From NCBI GenBank assembly GCA_023138875.1, contig JAGLOO010000015.1, positions 62,001-126,000 on the forward strand: a DNA stretch of 64,000 nt, in the 5' to 3' direction. Within the stretch, counting starts at the first letter, position 1. The number at the start of each line of letters is the position of its first letter. Source of the stretch: Bacteroidales bacterium. GTDB lineage: Bacteria > Bacteroidota > Bacteroidia > Bacteroidales > GCA-2748055. Below, in pieces: positions 28,229 through 64,000 of this stretch. Both the position numbers and the translations under genes were made by a program. The notes beneath the pieces were generated by a model. That model was given only the letters and a program-made list of their open reading frames with translations, was not told where the DNA came from and did not search any database.

Positions 28229-29806
28229 TTAGATAACTGTTATGGTGATGTTATTCAGGGTCCTGAGTACTCCGTCAGGACCTGTTGCTCTAATTTTCTC
28301 AATCATAATTCGCTGACCACTTCTCAGTTGGCGGAACAGGTTCTTCTGTTCGGAAGTAAAACGTTCGTTGCTGGAAGACATAGAACTCCAGATGCCTCCC
28401 GAGCCCTGGAATGCTATCTCGAAAGATTGAACCTTGTATTCAACTTCAAACACAAAATCATCTGCTTCCGCCCTTACGTTCTGTAGTTGAGACAGCTTAC
28501 CAACCGTAAGGTTCCCTTCGGATCCCCTCACACCTACAACCTTGGCATCGGGTTTGGGAAGGTTGTATACCCTGAAATCCATTCTGTTCATCAACGTCCG
28601 GGATCCATCTACATCTGCATACACACTTACCGTAGCCTTATTTCCCTGGGAACCCGGTTTAACAATATAATCGCCCGGGCGGATCTTGGAAATATTACCG
28701 GTGGATATTGTTGCCACAACAGCACTCTCAGCAACGCCGCCGGCAGAGATGGCTACCGGGTTGGAAATTCCCCGGTAAAACACATTCATTCCTGTGGCTG
28801 AAATAGTTGCATTGGCTTCGGCCACCTCAAATTCCTCCTCAAAAGAACGACTGATTACATTTCCTTCGCTTTCAAGCTGAATGGTACCGCCCCACTTGCG
28901 AATCCCGATGGTGTTGTATGTAATAGAATAGACACCTTTACCACTCTCAACCTTAAGCATGGTACCGTCAGCAAGCTTCACTTCAGGCATTTTGGTGGAG
29001 TCGTAAGCCGCAAGAAATACCCTTGCCCTGTATTCCTGTCCCTTGAAAACCAAACTTCGGTCAGGGATTACCACTGCTTCAAGGGTATTCACCGGAATAG
29101 CACCGGCATCCACTTGTCCCAGCAGGAAATTAAGCACTTCAGCTTCAACATTGCGAACATCCCCTTGCATTTTAGATAGAAGGGTAATAACAGAAGCAAG
29201 TGGCATAAATTCGAAATAGGTAGATTCCCAAGTGGGAGTTAATCCTTTTTTTGCACCAGCGTGAAGCTTCTCCTTTGCTTCAGTACTCAGGTTCCCTTCT
29301 ATTGCCTCAACGGTAGTTGCGTACTTTTCTTTATCTTCGATAAGAGAAAGCAGGAATTCTCGATGCCCTTCAATTTTGTGTCTTAGTTCTTCTCCTTTTT
29401 TACCCACAATCATGATTTCAGCTGGGGTATTTGTATTATCCTTTTGATTGACATCTGCCAGGTGGACCACTCCATCGTGAATAGCCTCGTCGTCTTTTAC
29501 CTGGACAATTTCCACTTTGCATTCATTAAGAAATTCATAAAGTTCATCGGAGCGGGTTTTGACCTCTTCAGCTCTATCTCTCCAATCCCCAACCTTTTCA
29601 GGATTCTGTTGATAGGCCATCGAGAACCGGTCATACAGACCACTATTCTTCACTGCAAAATTCTCGGTAGTTTCAACAAGACCATCATTTACAAGGATAA
29701 AAGCATCCAGCACTTCTTTCGAAACATTCATAGCCAGCATGGCAGTCAGTACCAGGTACATCATGCCAATCATTTTTTGTCTCGGTGTTTCTTTACCGTG
29801 TGCCAT
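28229..29806 (-). CDS. gldM: Type IX secretion system motor protein GldM/PorM
   Basis: 525-residue inner-membrane protein that forms the periplasmic shaft of the proton-driven T9SS and gliding motor. The N-terminal KETPRQKMIGMMYLVLTAMLAMNV holds Arg9, which matches the position of the functional arginine described for Flavobacterium GldM, and the single membrane helix. Helical domain D1 follows (to about residue 230, with TWESTYFEFMPLASVITLL near its end), then three beta-rich domains ending RTLNNITITVI. GldM is known to assemble as a dimer inside a GldL pentamer. The start follows gldL by 20 bases. Part of D1 aligns with the C-terminal end of the hybrid protein at 62633-63877. Confidence 0.97.
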   Translation of the reverse strand: MAHGKETPRQKMIGMMYLVLTAMLAMNVSKEVLDAFILVNDGLVETTENFAVKNSGLYDRFSMAYQQNPEKVGDWRDRAEEVKTRSDELYEFLNECKVEIVQVKDDEAIHDGVVHLADVNQKDNTNTPAEIMIVGKKGEELRHKIEGHREFLLSLIEDKEKYATTVEAIEGNLSTEAKEKLHAGAKKGLTPTWESTYFEFMPLASVITLLSKMQGDVRNVEAEVLNFLLGQVDAGAIPVNTLEAVVIPDRSLVFKGQEYRARVFLAAYDSTKMPEVKLADGTMLKVESGKGVYSITYNTIGIRKWGGTIQLESEGNVISRSFEEEFEVAEANATISATGMNVFYRGISNPVAISAGGVAESAVVATISTGNISKIRPGDYIVKPGSQGNKATVSVYADVDGSRTLMNRMDFRVYNLPKPDAKVVGVRGSEGNLTVGKLSQLQNVRAEADDFVFEVEYKVQSFEIAFQGSGGIWSSMSSSNERFTSEQKNLFRQLRSGQRIMIEKIRATGPDGVLRTLNNITITVI

Positions 29807-29826
29807 AGATCAGGATTAATTGTTTA

Positions 29827-30789
29827 TTACTTCTTTCTGATGCTCATCGCCGAGAGCATGTTGCCGTATACATTGTTCAGTTCAGAAAGGCTTTCGCTGA
29901 GTTTTACAATTTCGTTCTTATACTTCTGGGTCTCTTCGACGGATGCCTGGAGACTGGTGATCATCTCATTCAATCCTTTGTAAACCCCTGAAGTACCCTG
30001 AAGATGATCTTTACTTCCCTTGACCTGGTCGGAATAGGATAAATTCAAATCGCTAAGGTTTTTATTTAGAGATTCAAGCTGTTCGTTGAATTGTTTCTGA
30101 TTCTGAGAGATATTGGCATGCTCCTGTTTTACCTCACCCGACATGGCCTCATAGGTGGCAGTCAGGTTGGAGCTGGAAGCCGAGAACTTATCAGCAATGT
30201 CCTTGCCTTTTTGATCGATCAATAAGGCTGTGTTCTTGTACGATTCGGCCAGGGTATTCACCGTCTCATTAAGCTCGCCGGTATTATTACCGTATGCACT
30301 GGCTACATTGTCCATTTTCTGGGCGGCCATTCCCATTTTGTCGAAGTACCCCTTGGTGGCCAGCGATGCTGTAGTAATTTCCCCAATGGTCTCCGTGGTA
30401 GAAGAAATCGTATTCAGGTGTTTTCCAAGGCTGCGAACATCTTCCGCATTGATCTGGGATTGCTGGAACAGTTCATCGAATTTCTGCAGGCCCACATTCC
30501 TGTCAGCAATCGCCTGTTCCTTGTACTCATCAATTTCATCCGGGTCGGACATTCCAGCCAGTTCAGGATACACCAGTGTCCAATCCAGCTCCTCATGAAG
30601 TGGTTCGAACGCGGAGAAAAAGAAGATGACTGCCTCGATTAAAAGACCTGCGGTCAAAGCGGCTCCTGCACCAGGCCAGTGTTGGATTTTAAAGAGTGCT
30701 CCGATGATTACAATAGAGGCTCCGAAGCCATACAGCTTAGCCGTGAAACTTTTCCAGCCCGAACTCAGTACAATTTCTGTAATTCCCAT
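29827..30789 (-). CDS. gldL: Type IX secretion system motor protein GldL/PorL
   Basis: 320-residue inner-membrane stator-like protein that forms the pentamer around the GldM dimer and converts the proton gradient to motion. Two membrane helices (about residues 18-36 and 43-62) flank the conserved HWPGAG turn at 37-42. Glu52, in GLLIEAVIFFFSAFEP, matches the essential protonatable glutamate known from Flavobacterium GldL. A cytoplasmic region of about 250 residues with heptad-rich helices (TAEQ, LNETVNTLAESYKN, NKNLSDLNLSYSDQ) follows, longer than in Flavobacterium and like PorL of Porphyromonas. The gene is 16 bases after gldK. Confidence 0.96.
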   Translation of the reverse strand: MGITEIVLSSGWKSFTAKLYGFGASIVIIGALFKIQHWPGAGAALTAGLLIEAVIFFFSAFEPLHEELDWTLVYPELAGMSDPDEIDEYKEQAIADRNVGLQKFDELFQQSQINAEDVRSLGKHLNTISSTTETIGEITTASLATKGYFDKMGMAAQKMDNVASAYGNNTGELNETVNTLAESYKNTALLIDQKGKDIADKFSASSSNLTATYEAMSGEVKQEHANISQNQKQFNEQLESLNKNLSDLNLSYSDQVKGSKDHLQGTSGVYKGLNEMITSLQASVEETQKYKNEIVKLSESLSELNNVYGNMLSAMSIRKK

Positions 30790-59381: not shown

Positions 59382-60110
59382 CTATTCGACCACAAAACTG
59401 ATAACATTGGAAGCTTTCCCCAGTGATTCAGGATAAGAGTCATAATAACCCTGTCCCAAGGCCTGGGGATACACACAGAGGTAAATGGTATCGGATTCCA
59501 ATTGATCGAATCGGTTGTCCCATATTTCTACGCTGATTTCTGTCAGCAGGCCATCTATCTCTGGAGACCAAATCCACCCACTATTTTTTGCGACAAACTG
59601 ATCATTTGACACATCTGGTGTATTGCTGAAGAAACACCAGAATAAATAAGAAATCCTTGGTAAGCCGGAAAGCCCCTGGAGATTCACATAAATATAGGAT
59701 ATAAAATTATTCCCATTAAACCTTATACTGTCAATACACGTTTCAAATTTTGGAATTTCATGTAGACCGTATTCGACCATGGTGGGACTGTAGCCACCCA
59801 GGTGGTGAAGGGTGTAATCCCTGTATGATTTGATATACCCTTCCATTTCCAGGTCAATCTGGTAATTCCCATAAATTATATCCTGGAAATGGAATTTGCC
59901 AAAGGGATCGGTGATGGATTGACTTGCGAAGGTTCCGTCGGTCAAACTGACCTGAACGCCGGCCATATTCTCCTGGAGATAATAGTTTTCATCAAATACT
60001 TTTACCATCCCCGCGATATCTCCGCTTAGAAGAACCGGTTCTGTTTTTTCACAACCCGCAGCTATCCAGCAAAGGCTTAAGATGATCCATATAATAGGAG
60101 CTTTCATCAT
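59382..60110 (-). CDS. Lipoprotein with carboxypeptidase-like regulatory domain (third of three paralogues)
   Basis: 242 residues. The N-terminal signal ends in CWIAAGC with the lipidated cysteine at about residue 20. The mature part starts with a CarboxypepD_reg-like beta-sandwich: GDIAGMVKVFDENYYLQENM, GVQVSLTDG, ITDPFGKFHFQDIIYGNYQI, DLEMEGYIKSYRDYTLHHLG. This matches the corresponding part of its two upstream neighbours. The rest is a second beta-rich domain of unknown type. The start overlaps the previous gene's stop by four bases. Such lipoproteins usually sit on the outer membrane; a specific role cannot be inferred. Confidence 0.7.
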   Translation of the reverse strand: MMKAPIIWIILSLCWIAAGCEKTEPVLLSGDIAGMVKVFDENYYLQENMAGVQVSLTDGTFASQSITDPFGKFHFQDIIYGNYQIDLEMEGYIKSYRDYTLHHLGGYSPTMVEYGLHEIPKFETCIDSIRFNGNNFISYIYVNLQGLSGLPRISYLFWCFFSNTPDVSNDQFVAKNSGWIWSPEIDGLLTEISVEIWDNRFDQLESDTIYLCVYPQALGQGYYDSYPESLGKASNVISFVVE

Positions 60111-60874
60111 GGTGAGGGCATTGTAAAACTCATCACCGATGAATGCTCGTCCTTTTCCAGGGTTGAAAAGGTCAGCATTCCCGTATTTTTGTTAAAATAG
60201 CCATATTCATCAGGGTTGCATATATAAAGCCTCAGAAAAACCTTCTTTCCGCTTTCGAAAGGTATGTTATCTATGAACAACAATATCTTATCAAAGCCGT
60301 TTCGTTTTACTGAACGTGCCTGGCTGGTCCACTGAAAATTTTTGTAGCTAACATCATTATCCTCTGACATAAATACCCGGGCAGGTATCTCACCCTGACT
60401 CCGGCTGGTGGTTATAACGATCTTTTTTTCACTCAACCAAGAATAGGTATCCTGGGTATGTATTTCGTAAAGGGTGGGCAGCTTTAACCCGGTCATGCTT
60501 TTGTATAGTTCGTCCCTCACTCTGACAGTATCACTACCGAAGAGCTGGATTCCATATTGATACTTGGTTCCGTATCCCTCCTTGCTGATCTCCAGTTTGT
60601 AGGTGCCGTTCCCCAGTCCGTTGATTTGGAAATCTCCGGCGCTGTTGGTAAGCGCTGTTTCTTCCTGGTAGGGGCCCAGGGCAGTAACGGTGATATTTTC
60701 AGGAGTTTCATCATAGGAATAGTAGAAATCAATATTCCCATAGATCACACTGTTGGTGAACAAAGGTTCCGGGAAATCTTCTGAACAGGAGCATGTAAGA
60801 GCCCATAAGGCGATCCCTGTCAGAAGGCAAAGTCTATTCCGGAAAAATAAAAGAATACTCATCGGATTCATCAC
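60107..60874 (-). CDS. Lipoprotein with carboxypeptidase-like regulatory domain (second of three paralogues)
   Basis: 255 residues, or 251 if the ATG at 60862 is used, which gives a shorter overlap with the previous gene. The signal region (LCLLTGIALWALTCSCSEDF) has a weak lipobox, with cysteines at about 28 and 30. The regulatory-like beta-sandwich includes SVIYGNIDFYYSYDETPENI, VTALGPYQEETALTNSAGDF, NGLGNGTYKLEISKEGYGTK and YQYGIQLFGSDTVRV. A 130-residue C-terminal beta domain follows. The gene overlaps its upstream paralogue by up to 41 bases and its downstream paralogue by four, so the three are made from one message. Confidence 0.7.
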   Translation of the reverse strand: MMNPMSILLFFRNRLCLLTGIALWALTCSCSEDFPEPLFTNSVIYGNIDFYYSYDETPENITVTALGPYQEETALTNSAGDFQINGLGNGTYKLEISKEGYGTKYQYGIQLFGSDTVRVRDELYKSMTGLKLPTLYEIHTQDTYSWLSEKKIVITTSRSQGEIPARVFMSEDNDVSYKNFQWTSQARSVKRNGFDKILLFIDNIPFESGKKVFLRLYICNPDEYGYFNKNTGMLTFSTLEKDEHSSVMSFTMPSP

Positions 60875-61619
60875 CTAAGTTAGGATATATGGTTTCATTG
60901 AGTTCATAATCGAAATAAGTGTCCACGCCAACTACGTTCCAATTTTGCATGGGTGGCCGGAAAACACTATTAGCTGTAAAGCGGCAGGCTTTATAGTAGA
61001 CTGTTTCACCTGGACTGAAAGGGGTTTCATTAAAATAGAACTTTCCCCAATACTTCCCGTCCGTTTGCCAGATTCTAACATTTTCAATATACGCAGCATT
61101 TTGCCTTGTGAAATTGTCCGAGCTTGAAAAATAGGCTTTCAGGAGAAAGGAAGAGGGAGGATTCGCAATGGCAAAGGTAAATTCACAGGAAATGCTATCA
61201 TTCACGATGTTGAGATGGTCAATGATGGTTGCTGGCATTTCATAAAGAATATAGGCCTGCTCTTCACTTCGGTTGTTTAACAGAATGGTAGGCTTTCCCC
61301 CCAGGTGCTGAACCCCAAACTGTTTCAGCACCCCGAATCCCTCTTTTTCAAAATGCAATTCATAGGTCCCAGTAGGGATATCTTCCAGTACAAATCTTCC
61401 TTTGGAATTCGAATGTGTACTATAGCTTTCATCCATCCCCAGGGCGGTAATTTTGACATGGCTGCGGTCCCCCAGCAAAGACCCAAACTCGTCGAAGGTA
61501 TAGATGTATCCGATCATATTGCCCGTCAACCCGGGAAGGTAGTCATCCTTACTACAACCAAGGTATATGGCTGGAAGTAACAGAATTAAAACGGATAATG
61601 ATAACAGGTGGGACCTCAT
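60834..61619 (-). CDS. Lipoprotein with carboxypeptidase-like regulatory domain (first of three paralogues)
   Basis: 261 residues with a clear lipoprotein signal (LILLLPAIYLGC, lipidated cysteine at about residue 22). The conserved domain reads NMIGYIYTFDEFGSLLGDRS, VKITALGMDESYSTHSNSKG, RFVLEDIPTGTYELHFEKEG, FGVLKQFGVQHLGGKPTILL, the best-preserved version of the shared module. The C-terminal half holds further beta strands (FKVAAFSSSD-like segments, YYKACRFTANSVFRPPMQN). It leads the three-gene operon. The 150 bases upstream contain only a near match to a -7 box (TAAGTTCG on the minus strand). Confidence 0.72.
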   Translation of the reverse strand: MRSHLLSLSVLILLLPAIYLGCSKDDYLPGLTGNMIGYIYTFDEFGSLLGDRSHVKITALGMDESYSTHSNSKGRFVLEDIPTGTYELHFEKEGFGVLKQFGVQHLGGKPTILLNNRSEEQAYILYEMPATIIDHLNIVNDSISCEFTFAIANPPSSFLLKAYFSSSDNFTRQNAAYIENVRIWQTDGKYWGKFYFNETPFSPGETVYYKACRFTANSVFRPPMQNWNVVGVDTYFDYELNETIYPNLGDESDEYSFIFPE

Positions 61620-61775
61620 CTAATAAAGTTATGAAAAACGAACTTACTTTCAAAACTTTCGATACAAACCAACATCAACAATCAGAGCTAATTGCCACTA
61701 TATCAGCGTAATAAAATTATGCAGCAAAGTTTGATTGCTTGGAATGATTTTTATATTTTGGGGCAAAATTGATTG

Positions 61776-62018
61776 ATGAATGTAGAAGATATCCGAGAAT
61801 ACTGCATTAGCAAACCTGGGGTTACCGAAGGATTCCCTTTCAATGACACCGCACTGGTCTTCAAAGTGGCCGGGAAGATGTTTGTACTGCTTGACCTGTC
61901 TGAGGAAGCCAGGGGCCTCACTCTGAAATGTGATCCGGAGCTGGCCATTGAACTGCGGGAGCAGCACCCTGAGGTTACGCACGCCTGGCACTTTAATAAG
62001 ATCATTCTCTCTTTTTAA
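61776..62018 (+). CDS. MmcQ/YjbR-like protein, C-terminally truncated (copy C)
   Basis: 80 residues starting MNVEDIREYCISKPGVTEGF. It matches the family to AWHFNK, then ends with IILSF and a stop, losing the last third of the domain at the same codon as copy B. Two stretches of 52 and 56 bases (61833-61884, 61896-61951) are identical to copy B, while the first 57 bases of the genes differ at many positions. After the break the two copies share only short pieces (ATACTGTAAA). It is alone on the plus strand between the lipoprotein operon and the PadR gene. Confidence 0.7.
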   Translation: MNVEDIREYCISKPGVTEGFPFNDTALVFKVAGKMFVLLDLSEEARGLTLKCDPELAIELREQHPEVTHAWHFNKIILSF

Positions 62019-62233: not shown

Positions 62234-62279
62234 CGTATATATAAGACTTGGATATATCGGATATTTATACGTATATTTG
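62234..62279 (+). promoter_or_regulatory. Promoter and PadR-operator candidate for the PadR operon
   Basis: TATATTTG (62272-62279) matches TAnnTTTG, with CTTG (62247-62250) as a -33 element 21 bases upstream, the best promoter in the window. The palindrome TATACGTATA (62266-62275) overlaps the -7 box. CGTATAT occurs at 62234-62240 and again at 62270-62276. Such a site is where a PadR repressor could block its own operon. The rest of 62019-62233 has no recognisable gene. Confidence 0.55.
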
Positions 62280-62283
62280 TGTC

Positions 62284-62628
62284 ATGATATCAAAAGACTT
62301 ACTCAAAGGCACGTTAAAAACCATTGTTCTTAAACTTCTCGAGGAGAACGGACGGATGTATGGCTACGAGATTACCCGGGAGGTAGAAAGACTAACTGAA
62401 GGCAAGGTGCAGCTCTCATGGGGAGCTTTATATCCTGCGCTTCATAAACTGGAATCGGACCGGCTGATTACATCCGAAGAGGAGAGTATCGGGAAAAGGG
62501 TACGTAAATATTATCACCTGACCGAGTCGGGCACCAGCGCAGCCAAAGAAAAGATCCAGGAATTCATCGATTTTGTGACCATCATGGGGCGGGTCCTGGA
62601 CACAGGCCCCAGCCTGAACCTGGCTTAA
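62284..62628 (+). CDS. PadR family transcriptional regulator
   Basis: 114 residues from the ATG at 62284, the PadR subfamily-2 size. The winged helix-turn-helix reads LKGTLKTIVLKLLEENGRMY, GYEITREVERLTEGKVQLSW, GALYPALHKLESDRLITSEE and a C-terminal helix (AAKEKIQEFIDFVTIMGRVL) for dimerisation. The frame is open 12 codons upstream, but the promoter lies within them. PadR proteins of this kind are usually repressors encoded beside a membrane protein that they control. The next gene begins four bases after its stop. Confidence 0.93.
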   Translation: MISKDLLKGTLKTIVLKLLEENGRMYGYEITREVERLTEGKVQLSWGALYPALHKLESDRLITSEEESIGKRVRKYYHLTESGTSAAKEKIQEFIDFVTIMGRVLDTGPSLNLA

Positions 62629-62632
62629 GGGT

Positions 62633-63877
62633 ATGGCCGAATTGACCGACAGGGAACTTGAGATCCTCAGCAAGGAGATCGACAAGCAGGGATTAACCTA
62701 TACCCAGCTTCAGAAAGAGCTCCTTGACCATCTCTGCTGCGACATTGAAGTAAAGATGGATGAAGGGATCGAATTCCTCATAGCCTTAGAGGAGGTCAGG
62801 AAACAACTTGAAAATGACAGGATCCAGAAGATCCAGGAAGAGACACTGTTACTTATAAACCAAAAATACCGAATGATGAAAAAATTCATGTATATCCTCG
62901 GAACCATCGCCCCTTCTCTCCTGATTGTGGGAGCAGTATGTAAACTTCAGCACTGGCCCGGGGCCGGTGTACTCATTACCCTGGGCACCTTTCTGCTGGC
63001 AGCCGTCTACCTGCCGGTCTTTGCCATGGTGAGCATCCGCGATACCCGGAAAAAAGGGAAACGGGTCAATAAGCCACTATACATTGCAGGGGTTGCTACT
63101 GGCTTTATTTTCCTGACCGGTGTCCTCTTTAAGGTCATGCACTGGCCGGGTGCCGGTATAGCATTAACCTTCAGCGTTCTTCTTACCGTTGCAGTCTTCA
63201 TCCCCATCCTGGTCACCCAGGCGTTAAAGGACAAAGAGAACCAGGTCCACAATTTCTCCATCCTGATTTTCATCCTGGCCTTTATGGCAGTGAACATTAT
63301 GGTATTTGCCCTGAAGGTTTCTAAAAATGTATTGACCTCCATGATGGTGACTACCGAAGCCTCCATGGTGACCAGCCGGACCCTGGAAGCAAATAATGCC
63401 CTGCTCCTGAAACAGGCCACACAACCGGAACAGGCGGGAACTATCAGTGAAAAGAGCAATGCCCTGGATACATACATCCAGGGAATCATGGCCGAGATCG
63501 TACTGCTTACACATGAGAAAAACCACGCTGCTGTGGGAATAGATAATTCCATCGATCTGCAGAAAGCCGGCTATTTTGATGTTCACAACAGCGTATCCCA
63601 GGTTATTTTTGGTGACGAAAAAACTACGGGAAAAGGAGAAACCCTGGTGGCTTCCCTGGATTCATACAGGGAAATGTTGCTGGAAAATGCAGGACCGGAG
63701 CTTGATGAGTCCATTGACCAGTTGCTTAACACCGGTCCGATGGGAGAATACCAGGAATCTTGGCTGTCTTATAATTTCAACCAGGCTCCCATGATAGGCG
63801 CCGTACATGTCCTATCCAACCTGCAGGTCAGCCTCCGGTTTCTTGAGGGAGAGGTGCTGAGGGATGTATTTAAATGA
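62633..63877 (+). CDS. PadR-linked membrane protein combining GldL-like hairpins and a GldM-like region
   Basis: 414 residues, unusual. Residues 1-60 are helical and resemble the HAAS/DUF1700-type domain found next to PadR regulators (TDRELEILSKEIDKQGLTYT, LLDHLCCDIEVKMDEGIEFL). Two GldL-like transmembrane hairpins follow, each with HWPGAG (107-112 and 170-175). A fifth membrane segment (207-228) runs into KVSKNVLTSM, similar to NVSKEVLDAF of GldM. Residues 377-409 align without gaps with GldM 193-225 (W, S, F, P, L, S, Q, R, E, E, V, L conserved). In both hairpins the GldL glutamate position is Leu122 and Thr185, so no proton carrier is evident. Function unknown; a PadR-controlled envelope sensor is one reading. 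Confidence 0.75.
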   Translation: MAELTDRELEILSKEIDKQGLTYTQLQKELLDHLCCDIEVKMDEGIEFLIALEEVRKQLENDRIQKIQEETLLLINQKYRMMKKFMYILGTIAPSLLIVGAVCKLQHWPGAGVLITLGTFLLAAVYLPVFAMVSIRDTRKKGKRVNKPLYIAGVATGFIFLTGVLFKVMHWPGAGIALTFSVLLTVAVFIPILVTQALKDKENQVHNFSILIFILAFMAVNIMVFALKVSKNVLTSMMVTTEASMVTSRTLEANNALLLKQATQPEQAGTISEKSNALDTYIQGIMAEIVLLTHEKNHAAVGIDNSIDLQKAGYFDVHNSVSQVIFGDEKTTGKGETLVASLDSYREMLLENAGPELDESIDQLLNTGPMGEYQESWLSYNFNQAPMIGAVHVLSNLQVSLRFLEGEVLRDVFK

Positions 63878-64000
63878 AAGCACTCCCTTTCAATGATACA
63901 GCACTGGTCTTTAAGGTGGCCGGGAAGATGTTTGCCTTGCTGGACCTGTCTGAAGATAGCAGGGGATTAAGCCTCAAATGTGACCCGGAACTGGCCATAG
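63874..64000 (+). CDS. MmcQ/YjbR-like protein lacking its N-terminus (copy D, cut by window end)
   Basis: The frame starts with an ATG that overlaps the TGA of the previous gene (ATGA) and reads MKALPFNDTALVFKVAGKMF, ALLDLSEDSRGLSLKCDPEL, AI. It matches the family from PFNDTALVFKV on, but the first 16-18 residues (the MNxEEIREYC helix) of the other copies are replaced by MKAL. The 3' end is outside the window, so whether the C-terminus is present cannot be seen. Either a fragment joined to the upstream gene or a translationally coupled short protein. Confidence 0.65.
   Translation, partial: MKALPFNDTALVFKVAGKMFALLDLSEDSRGLSLKCDPELAI

Follow-up and report, generated by a model that had tools for sequence, protein, structure and literature searches.

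Gene content of the PadR–hybrid locus

The window (the whole 64,000-nucleotide stretch of DNA that was analysed) encodes a GldL/GldM-derived membrane protein of 414 amino acids directly behind a gene for a PadR-family regulator, in addition to complete genes for the true GldL and GldM. The genes and promoter features are as follows.

62237–62257 (+): operator-like inverted repeat ATATATAAGACTTGGATATAT with 6-base arms, upstream of the PadR gene
62266–62275 (+): second palindrome TATACGTATA, overlapping the -7 element, read from the sequence
62272–62279 (+): -7 promoter-like element TATATTTG (TAnnTTTG), beginning 12 nt before the PadR ATG, supported by a family-wide motif count
62284–62628 (+): PadR-family transcriptional regulator, 114 aa (PF03551, 7.6e-21, translation of 62290–62625)
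62633–63877 (+): GldL/GldM-derived membrane protein, 414 aa, ATG start (Pfam, profile and fold matches)
28229–29806 (-): true gldM, complete (TIGR03517, 405.8 bits, 3e-121)
29827–30789 (-): true gldL, complete (TIGR03513, 182.2 bits, 1.6e-53)

Truncated copies of an ORF that we take to be MmcQ/YjbR-like flank the PadR–hybrid operon at 61773–62018 and 63874–64000 (on to L001 2930). The two copies are 82.5% identical over 166 nt, and no such ORF was found by phmmer in the remaining loci of the family. They may mark an insertion or duplication. Also near the hybrid gene, three successive ORFs of 242, 255 and 261 aa (59382–61619, -) are alike and lipoprotein-like as judged by eye.

The 62633–63877 product is a GldL–GldM hybrid

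Several independent comparisons identify the product of 62633–63877 as a genuine GldL–GldM hybrid. In Pfam searches it matched GldL_N with 43.6 bits (cut-off 24, 3.4e-11) in two stretches and GldM_1st with 62.5 bits (cut-off 25, 6.9e-17) over residues 264–412, and the next families scored far under their cut-offs. BLASTP against the organism's own GldL gave one match per hairpin (9e-10 and 4e-9), and against its own GldM a match of 2e-6 in which VSKNVL is paired with VSKEVL. Among PDB sequences, the single hybrid sequence matched PorM/GldM (6.5e-8) and GldL (0.039) by phmmer; a profile of 59 relatives matched structures of GldM with 2.3e-26 and of GldL with 6.1e-6, the GldM alignment starting inside the membrane helix and covering D1 to its end. 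An AlphaFold model built on the alignment of the 59 relatives had a mean pLDDT of 91.5 and a pTM of 0.72. All 18 of its Foldseek matches at E ≤ 0.001 are GldM/PorM, and its C-terminal part has a target-normalised TM-score of 0.80 to the N-terminal part of PorM (6ey0_A). The hybrid does not reach the equivalog models of GldL (TIGR03513, 20.1 bits versus at least 68.3 required) or GldM (TIGR03517, 59.8 bits versus at least 180 required).

An earlier note, made from the sequence alone, had read the ORF 62633–63877 (+) as a protein with two HWPGAG hairpins, a fifth membrane segment followed by VSKNVL, and an ungapped match of residues 377–409 to GldM 193–225 with 12 of 33 identities. The ORF and all residue readings held: HWPGAG lies at residues 107 and 170 (residue 37 in the organism's own GldL), VSKNVL at residue 229 (VSKEVL at residue 28 in its own GldM), and the count of 12 identities is exact. 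This stretch is the best ungapped 33-mer between both proteins, but because 2 of 300 shuffles of the 414-aa protein reach 12 identities somewhere, it is by itself only moderate evidence, and the whole-protein tests are stronger. The claims that modules of GldL and GldM are fused in one polypeptide, and that the hybrid is additional to a complete gldL and gldM at 28229–30789, were likewise supported; these are separate genes. Of the checks that the note had proposed, the profile search placed the hairpins in GldL_N and the C-terminal part in GldM_1st with no rival family, and the structure comparison returned the GldM/PorM fold for the C-terminal part, so that neither of the two outcomes named as refuting occurred. 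The note had missed the N-terminal domain (about 80 residues, linked to PadR), the loss of the essential charged residues of the motor and the absence of GldM D2–D4. It had also not seen that the gene belongs to a large modular family and is no unique fusion.

Domain anatomy

The hybrid is composed of five parts.

62633–62872 (+): N-terminal helical domain, residues 1–80, with DHxCCxxE, PadR-linked (65-row alignment)
62879–63025 (+): GldL-like hairpin 1, residues 83–131, HWPGAG at 107 (GldL_N; BLASTP to own GldL, 9e-10)
63071–63220 (+): GldL-like hairpin 2, residues 147–196, HWPGAG at 170 (GldL_N; BLASTP to own GldL, 4e-9)
63251–63334 (+): GldM-like transmembrane helix with VSKNVL, residues 207–234 (family profile; BLASTP)
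63335–63874 (+): GldM D1-like periplasmic domain, residues 235–414 (GldM_1st at 264–412; Foldseek)

In the N-terminal domain, D32, H33, C35, E39 and F48 are invariant and C36 is conserved in at least 90% of the 65-row alignment. Helices comprise residues 6–18, 24–43 and 48–58, followed by 63–105, in the full AlphaFold model, and the invariant D32, H33, C35 and E39 of the DHxCCxxE motif (query residues 32–39) share one helix. The motif could be a metal site or a contact to PadR. The chain stops after D1; GldM_2nd, GldM_3rd and GldM_4th (D2–D4) and the GldL cytoplasmic domain were absent from the hybrid according to Pfam.

Loss of motor residues

In GldL of Flavobacterium johnsoniae, two glutamates are essential: E49, which is strictly conserved, for both secretion and gliding, and E59 for gliding (PMC8986121); the GldM substitution Y17A lowers secretion (PMC9127263). 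GldM Arg9, where the membrane helix begins, likewise has a role in the motor. True GldLs of the taxonomic family, which were not selected by their Glu, carry Glu at the E49 equivalent, 15 residues after the His of HWPG, in 22 of 22 sequences (24 loci). The 114 proteins of the hybrid family contain 249 hairpins, for which the reference profile was made from 203 HWPG[AS] hairpins of the family itself, and not one of the 249 has an acidic residue at this position. The query has Leu122 and Thr185 there. Asp or Glu anywhere from +6 to +23 is found in only 8 of 249 hairpins, and the E59 position is acidic in two. Retained are Lys(-3) in 234 and His(0) in 243 hairpins, which we take to be GldL K27 and H30.

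The GldM-like helix has a similar record. Among 59 members, the column of GldM R9 (210, counted back ungapped from VSK) contains no Arg and two Lys, columns 207–209 and 211–215 contain neither Arg nor Lys, and the Y17 column contains no Tyr. For GldM, the control set (22 of 24 loci) was chosen by an Arg-containing motif and is thus circular for Arg. Because the E49 position is never acidic in 249 hairpins and the Arg position is without Arg, it is very unlikely that the hybrid is a working motor. Stator and shaft in one chain would, by inference, also be hard to reconcile with rotation of the GldLM type.

A large modular family linked to PadR

A scan of named genomes yielded 79 loci, and 27 of 28 genomes of the organism's own taxonomic family were matched, true GldL/GldM matches included. 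Of 138 ORF matches, 114 proteins were kept; those left out were incomplete, duplicated, true GldL/GldM, or neighbours that were unrelated or had only the domain. GldL_N was detected in 111 members, GldM_1st in 59 and SpoIIE in four (E ≤ 0.01, some under curated cut-offs), which leaves 55 of 114 without a GldM_1st match at this threshold. Four types of architecture were recognised: two hairpins and a fifth helix, with D1 recognisable or not; three hairpins and a seventh helix, with D1 in most; partner proteins without the N-terminal domain; and hairpins–TM–GldM_1st–TM–SpoIIE. In five short members of 239–243 aa (L047, L060, L063, L066, L071) the chain stops after the fifth helix; these are without a periplasmic domain, yet still stand behind PadR.

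There are 121 distinct genes with the N-terminal domain. For 113 of them the upstream sequence spans at least 450 nt; 105 of these lie behind PadR, five behind a gene with the same domain and three behind neither. The domain is found behind PadR also without GldL/GldM parts (L046 3488–4363, L051 3537–4397). In addition to the N-terminal domain, these two proteins, of 291 and 286 aa, have one membrane helix and a C-terminal part that is unidentified, and their genes are positioned between PadR and a hairpin gene. The next gene downstream of the hybrid is on the opposite strand in L004 and L007, so the operon is PadR and hybrid only. The organism's own genome has a second copy of the family with its own PadR (L002). 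In four of the 114 members (L075 4944–7103, L078 4752–7154, L079 5040–7187, L080 4986–7052), SpoIIE forms the C-terminus of a protein with hairpins and GldM_1st in one chain. GldM_1st and SpoIIE exceed their cut-offs in all four, GldL_N only in L075, and no PadR match was found near the four genes.

The loci derive from Bacteroidales, Flavobacteriales, Chitinophaga, Sphingobacteriaceae and others. The family profile gave no match at 1e-8 in the 75 genomes of other classes that a phylum sample contained, and no family match was obtained on plasmids; the family is demonstrated within its class only. GldM was above cut-off in 43 of 44 tested genomes carrying the family, G175 being the exception; these were picked by eye for strong family matches from part of a 197-genome class sample, in which at most nine candidates per genome were scored. 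As 23 of 24 class genomes in the phylum sample have a GldM-type match anyway, this co-occurrence says little. Its use to argue for independence from T9SS was rejected as uninformative, since it cannot separate the hypotheses.

The two-gene variant

Where a three-hairpin gene has 500 nt or more of downstream sequence, a two-hairpin partner follows in 17 of 21 cases, as compared with none of 85 for two-hairpin genes (partner meaning, for the latter count, a protein without the N-terminal domain). With one GldM helix each, such a pair combines five hairpins with two GldM helices, the ratio of GldL5GldM2. The query type is without a partner, and a homodimer would give four hairpins to two. A strict 5:2 rule was rejected as a generality. 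No partner was found for the three-hairpin genes of L068 and of L091, L092 and L093 (only 537–606 nt downstream examined), L227 has two two-hairpin genes in tandem, both with the N-terminal domain, and in L101 and L102 the hairpins of the first gene are degenerate and the partner has two.

In a D1 tree of 74 rows, which included no true GldMs and did not address the direction of evolution, 14 three-hairpin proteins group apart from 14 partners, and both groups have a well-supported core of 13 members. The inner order of both groups agrees partly as judged by eye, which would fit a co-inherited pair. The 17 pairs are not 17 independent events, because 14 of their first genes share one D1 clade; of the other three, L013 sits on a long branch in another part of the tree, which does not include the remaining two.

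PadR gene and promoter region

The PadR gene, which the earlier note had correctly placed upstream of the hybrid (PF03551, 7.6e-21), ends 4 nt ahead of it. Elements similar to ATATATAAGACTTGGATATAT are also found upstream of PadR in the closest relatives. Motifs were counted in the 60 nt upstream of PadR, for 104 distinct sequences from the family, and in 20 rounds of dinucleotide shuffles, without correction for kinship of loci. TAnnTTTG, which we take to be the Bacteroidota -7 element, occurs in 85 of the 104 regions (shuffles: mean 5.5, maximum 10), 41 times exactly at -12. The repeat ATAYVT-N7-11-ATRTAT, a form chosen after inspection of the sequences, occurs in 65 (mean 3.1, maximum 7); 52 regions contain inverted repeats with arms of 7 bases (mean 14.7, maximum 19). 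The -7 element and the palindromic repeat overlap by eye in many regions. The promoter has the appearance of a self-repressed one, binding of PadR to this DNA being inferred.

At up to three mismatches, ATATATAAGACTTGGATATAT has a single occurrence in the window, and a 23-base degenerate version of it has one match in the organism's genome, at the PadR promoter; the same pattern written backwards, used as a control, likewise has one. Because the operator-like site was found just once in the genome, no regulon beyond the own operon is visible, and the membrane protein may be the output of PadR rather than a sensor.

Proposed function and alternatives

We propose that the hybrid is a non-rotating, GldLM-derived sensor or regulator coupled to a self-repressing PadR, a reading that in our judgement could as readily prove wrong as right. 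The hybrid would be the second gene of a short, seemingly self-repressed PadR operon and would comprise a cytoplasmic N-terminal domain, two hairpins, a GldM helix and periplasmic D1, probably dimerising through its GldM part. The membrane and D1 parts would register the state of the envelope, be it membrane energy, tension or T9SS itself; their rearrangement would pass to the N-terminal domain, which would bind or release PadR and so set expression of the operon. The evidence shows the domain composition with its homologies, the loss of motor residues, the linkage to PadR, the palindromes in the promoter and the SpoIIE-fused relatives. The dimer, the topology, the signal, binding of PadR to DNA and to the N-terminal domain, and the direction of control are all inferred, and no complex was modelled. 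In the four relatives a SpoIIE phosphatase stands in the place of the PadR-linked domain, and these relatives give the best independent indication of signal transmission by the motor-derived part. Against the sensor reading stand the missing match to HAAS, the single operator-like site in the genome and the 55 of 114 members without GldM_1st.

The alternative that survives best, and remains possible, is an effector: PadR itself would take up the signal and derepress a GldLM-like protein whose target is the envelope or the true GldLM motor, against whose helices it might, for example, pack as a poison subunit or brake. This is favoured by the operon consisting of PadR and hybrid alone in L004 and L007, by the single operator-like site, by the resemblance of hairpins and D1 to those of the motor, by the presence of GldM above cut-off in 43 of 44 family-carrying genomes and by a PadR-controlled membrane gene of Listeria that is treated as an effector (PMC6624303). 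However, the N-terminal domain stands behind PadR even without motor parts and, like the SpoIIE-fused relatives, speaks for signal transfer, and co-occurrence with GldM is weak support given how common GldM is in the class (23 of 24 genomes).

Less likely is that the hybrid serves the envelope as a scaffold or stress protein without any relation to T9SS and has merely borrowed the GldL and GldM folds. D2–D4 of GldM reach the ring in the outer membrane, and they are missing here; some members (239–244 aa) do not extend beyond the fifth helix, and GldM_1st is not matched at E ≤ 0.01 by 55 of 114. On the other hand, D1 is recognisable in 59 of 114 very diverse members, so the periplasmic part has been kept in about half. 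A second, self-contained ion-driven rotary motor is very unlikely: every membrane part of GldLM is present, with Lys(-3) in 234 and His(0) in 243 of 249 hairpins, but the essential Glu is gone from 249 of 249 hairpins and the Arg from 59 of 59 rows, and stator and shaft in one chain should, by inference, forbid free rotation.

The sensor reading can be taken further. In a bolder version, fusion of stator hairpins and shaft helix would have abolished rotation, the proton-carrying residues would have been lost, and the remaining helix bundle, a locked motor turned sensor of membrane energy, tension or T9SS, would drive either PadR or a SpoIIE phosphatase. The two-gene variant would then be a heterodimer of a three- and a two-hairpin protein, with five hairpins around two GldM helices as a locked copy of GldL5GldM2. 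Taken jointly, these steps are possible but in our judgement less likely than not.

A GldL–GldM hybrid with PadR or SpoIIE was not described in the full-text literature searched, which did not cover most subscription journals or any preprints. GldLM is one of few known rotary motors. If the sensor reading is true, parts of such a motor would in many Bacteroidota serve a second time, as a fixed signalling module whose output alternates between a transcription factor and a phosphatase. The hybrid would provide a natural motionless GldLM membrane core for structural work and a handle on how these bacteria sense membrane energy or secretion load, and the two-gene variant would exemplify a 5:2 count retained despite lost motor function.

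Comparison with known systems

The hybrid shares with GldLM/PorLM (GldL5GldM2) the GldL_N hairpins with HWPGA, a helix end like VSK.VL and the D1 fold. It differs in being one chain with tandem hairpins, encoded outside the T9SS operon, in lacking equivalents of E49, E59, R9 and Y17 as well as the GldL cytoplasmic domain and D2–D4, and in having the additional PadR-linked domain.

HAAS–PadR dyads, in which a helical domain is fused to membrane sensors, have been proposed as an alternative to two-component systems, and HAAS fusions to uncharacterised 6TM, 4TM and 2TM domains are reported (PMC11237479). GldL and GldM are not named in the main-text sections of that paper bearing on HAAS fusions, and it is possible that the uncharacterised fusions include GldL/GldM-like proteins. 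The likeness lies in a stand-alone PadR directly before a membrane protein that starts with a short helical domain; unlike HAAS, the N-terminal domain has no sequence match and no GxP motif. HAAS (PF22564) gave no Pfam match in the query at E up to 10, and was absent among the 25 of 40 families listed for 65 members at E up to 1. Comparison by hhalign with eight PspC-type HAAS domains of Bacteroidota, those of other phyla being excluded, gave a probability of 1.1%, and searches of PDB with the domain profile were negative or too weak. A separate model of the domain (pLDDT 64.2, one long third helix) was too poor for a Foldseek search, and residues 1–80 of the query contain no Pro, hence no GxP in the third helix. 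All tests of HAAS membership being negative or too weak, we reject it and retain HAAS only as an analogy, by which the N-terminal domain may function similarly, its contact with PadR being inferred.

In Listeria, the PadR repressors of LstR–Lmo0421 and LltR–Lmo0600 mainly control their own operons, and the PadR-controlled membrane gene is regarded as an effector; Lmo0421 is a homologue of FtsW/RodA that could not replace that function in tests (PMC6624303). Common to both cases are a PadR with control of its own operon, inferred for the hybrid, and, for Lmo0421, the resemblance to an envelope machine, whereas the Listeria proteins are of FtsW/RodA and DUF1700 type instead of GldLM and belong to a Gram-positive organism. 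The SpoIIE-type membrane phosphatases, finally, differ from the query, which has no SpoIIE domain, and resemble the four relatives that end in such a domain, in which the membrane part is made up of the hairpins and GldM_1st.
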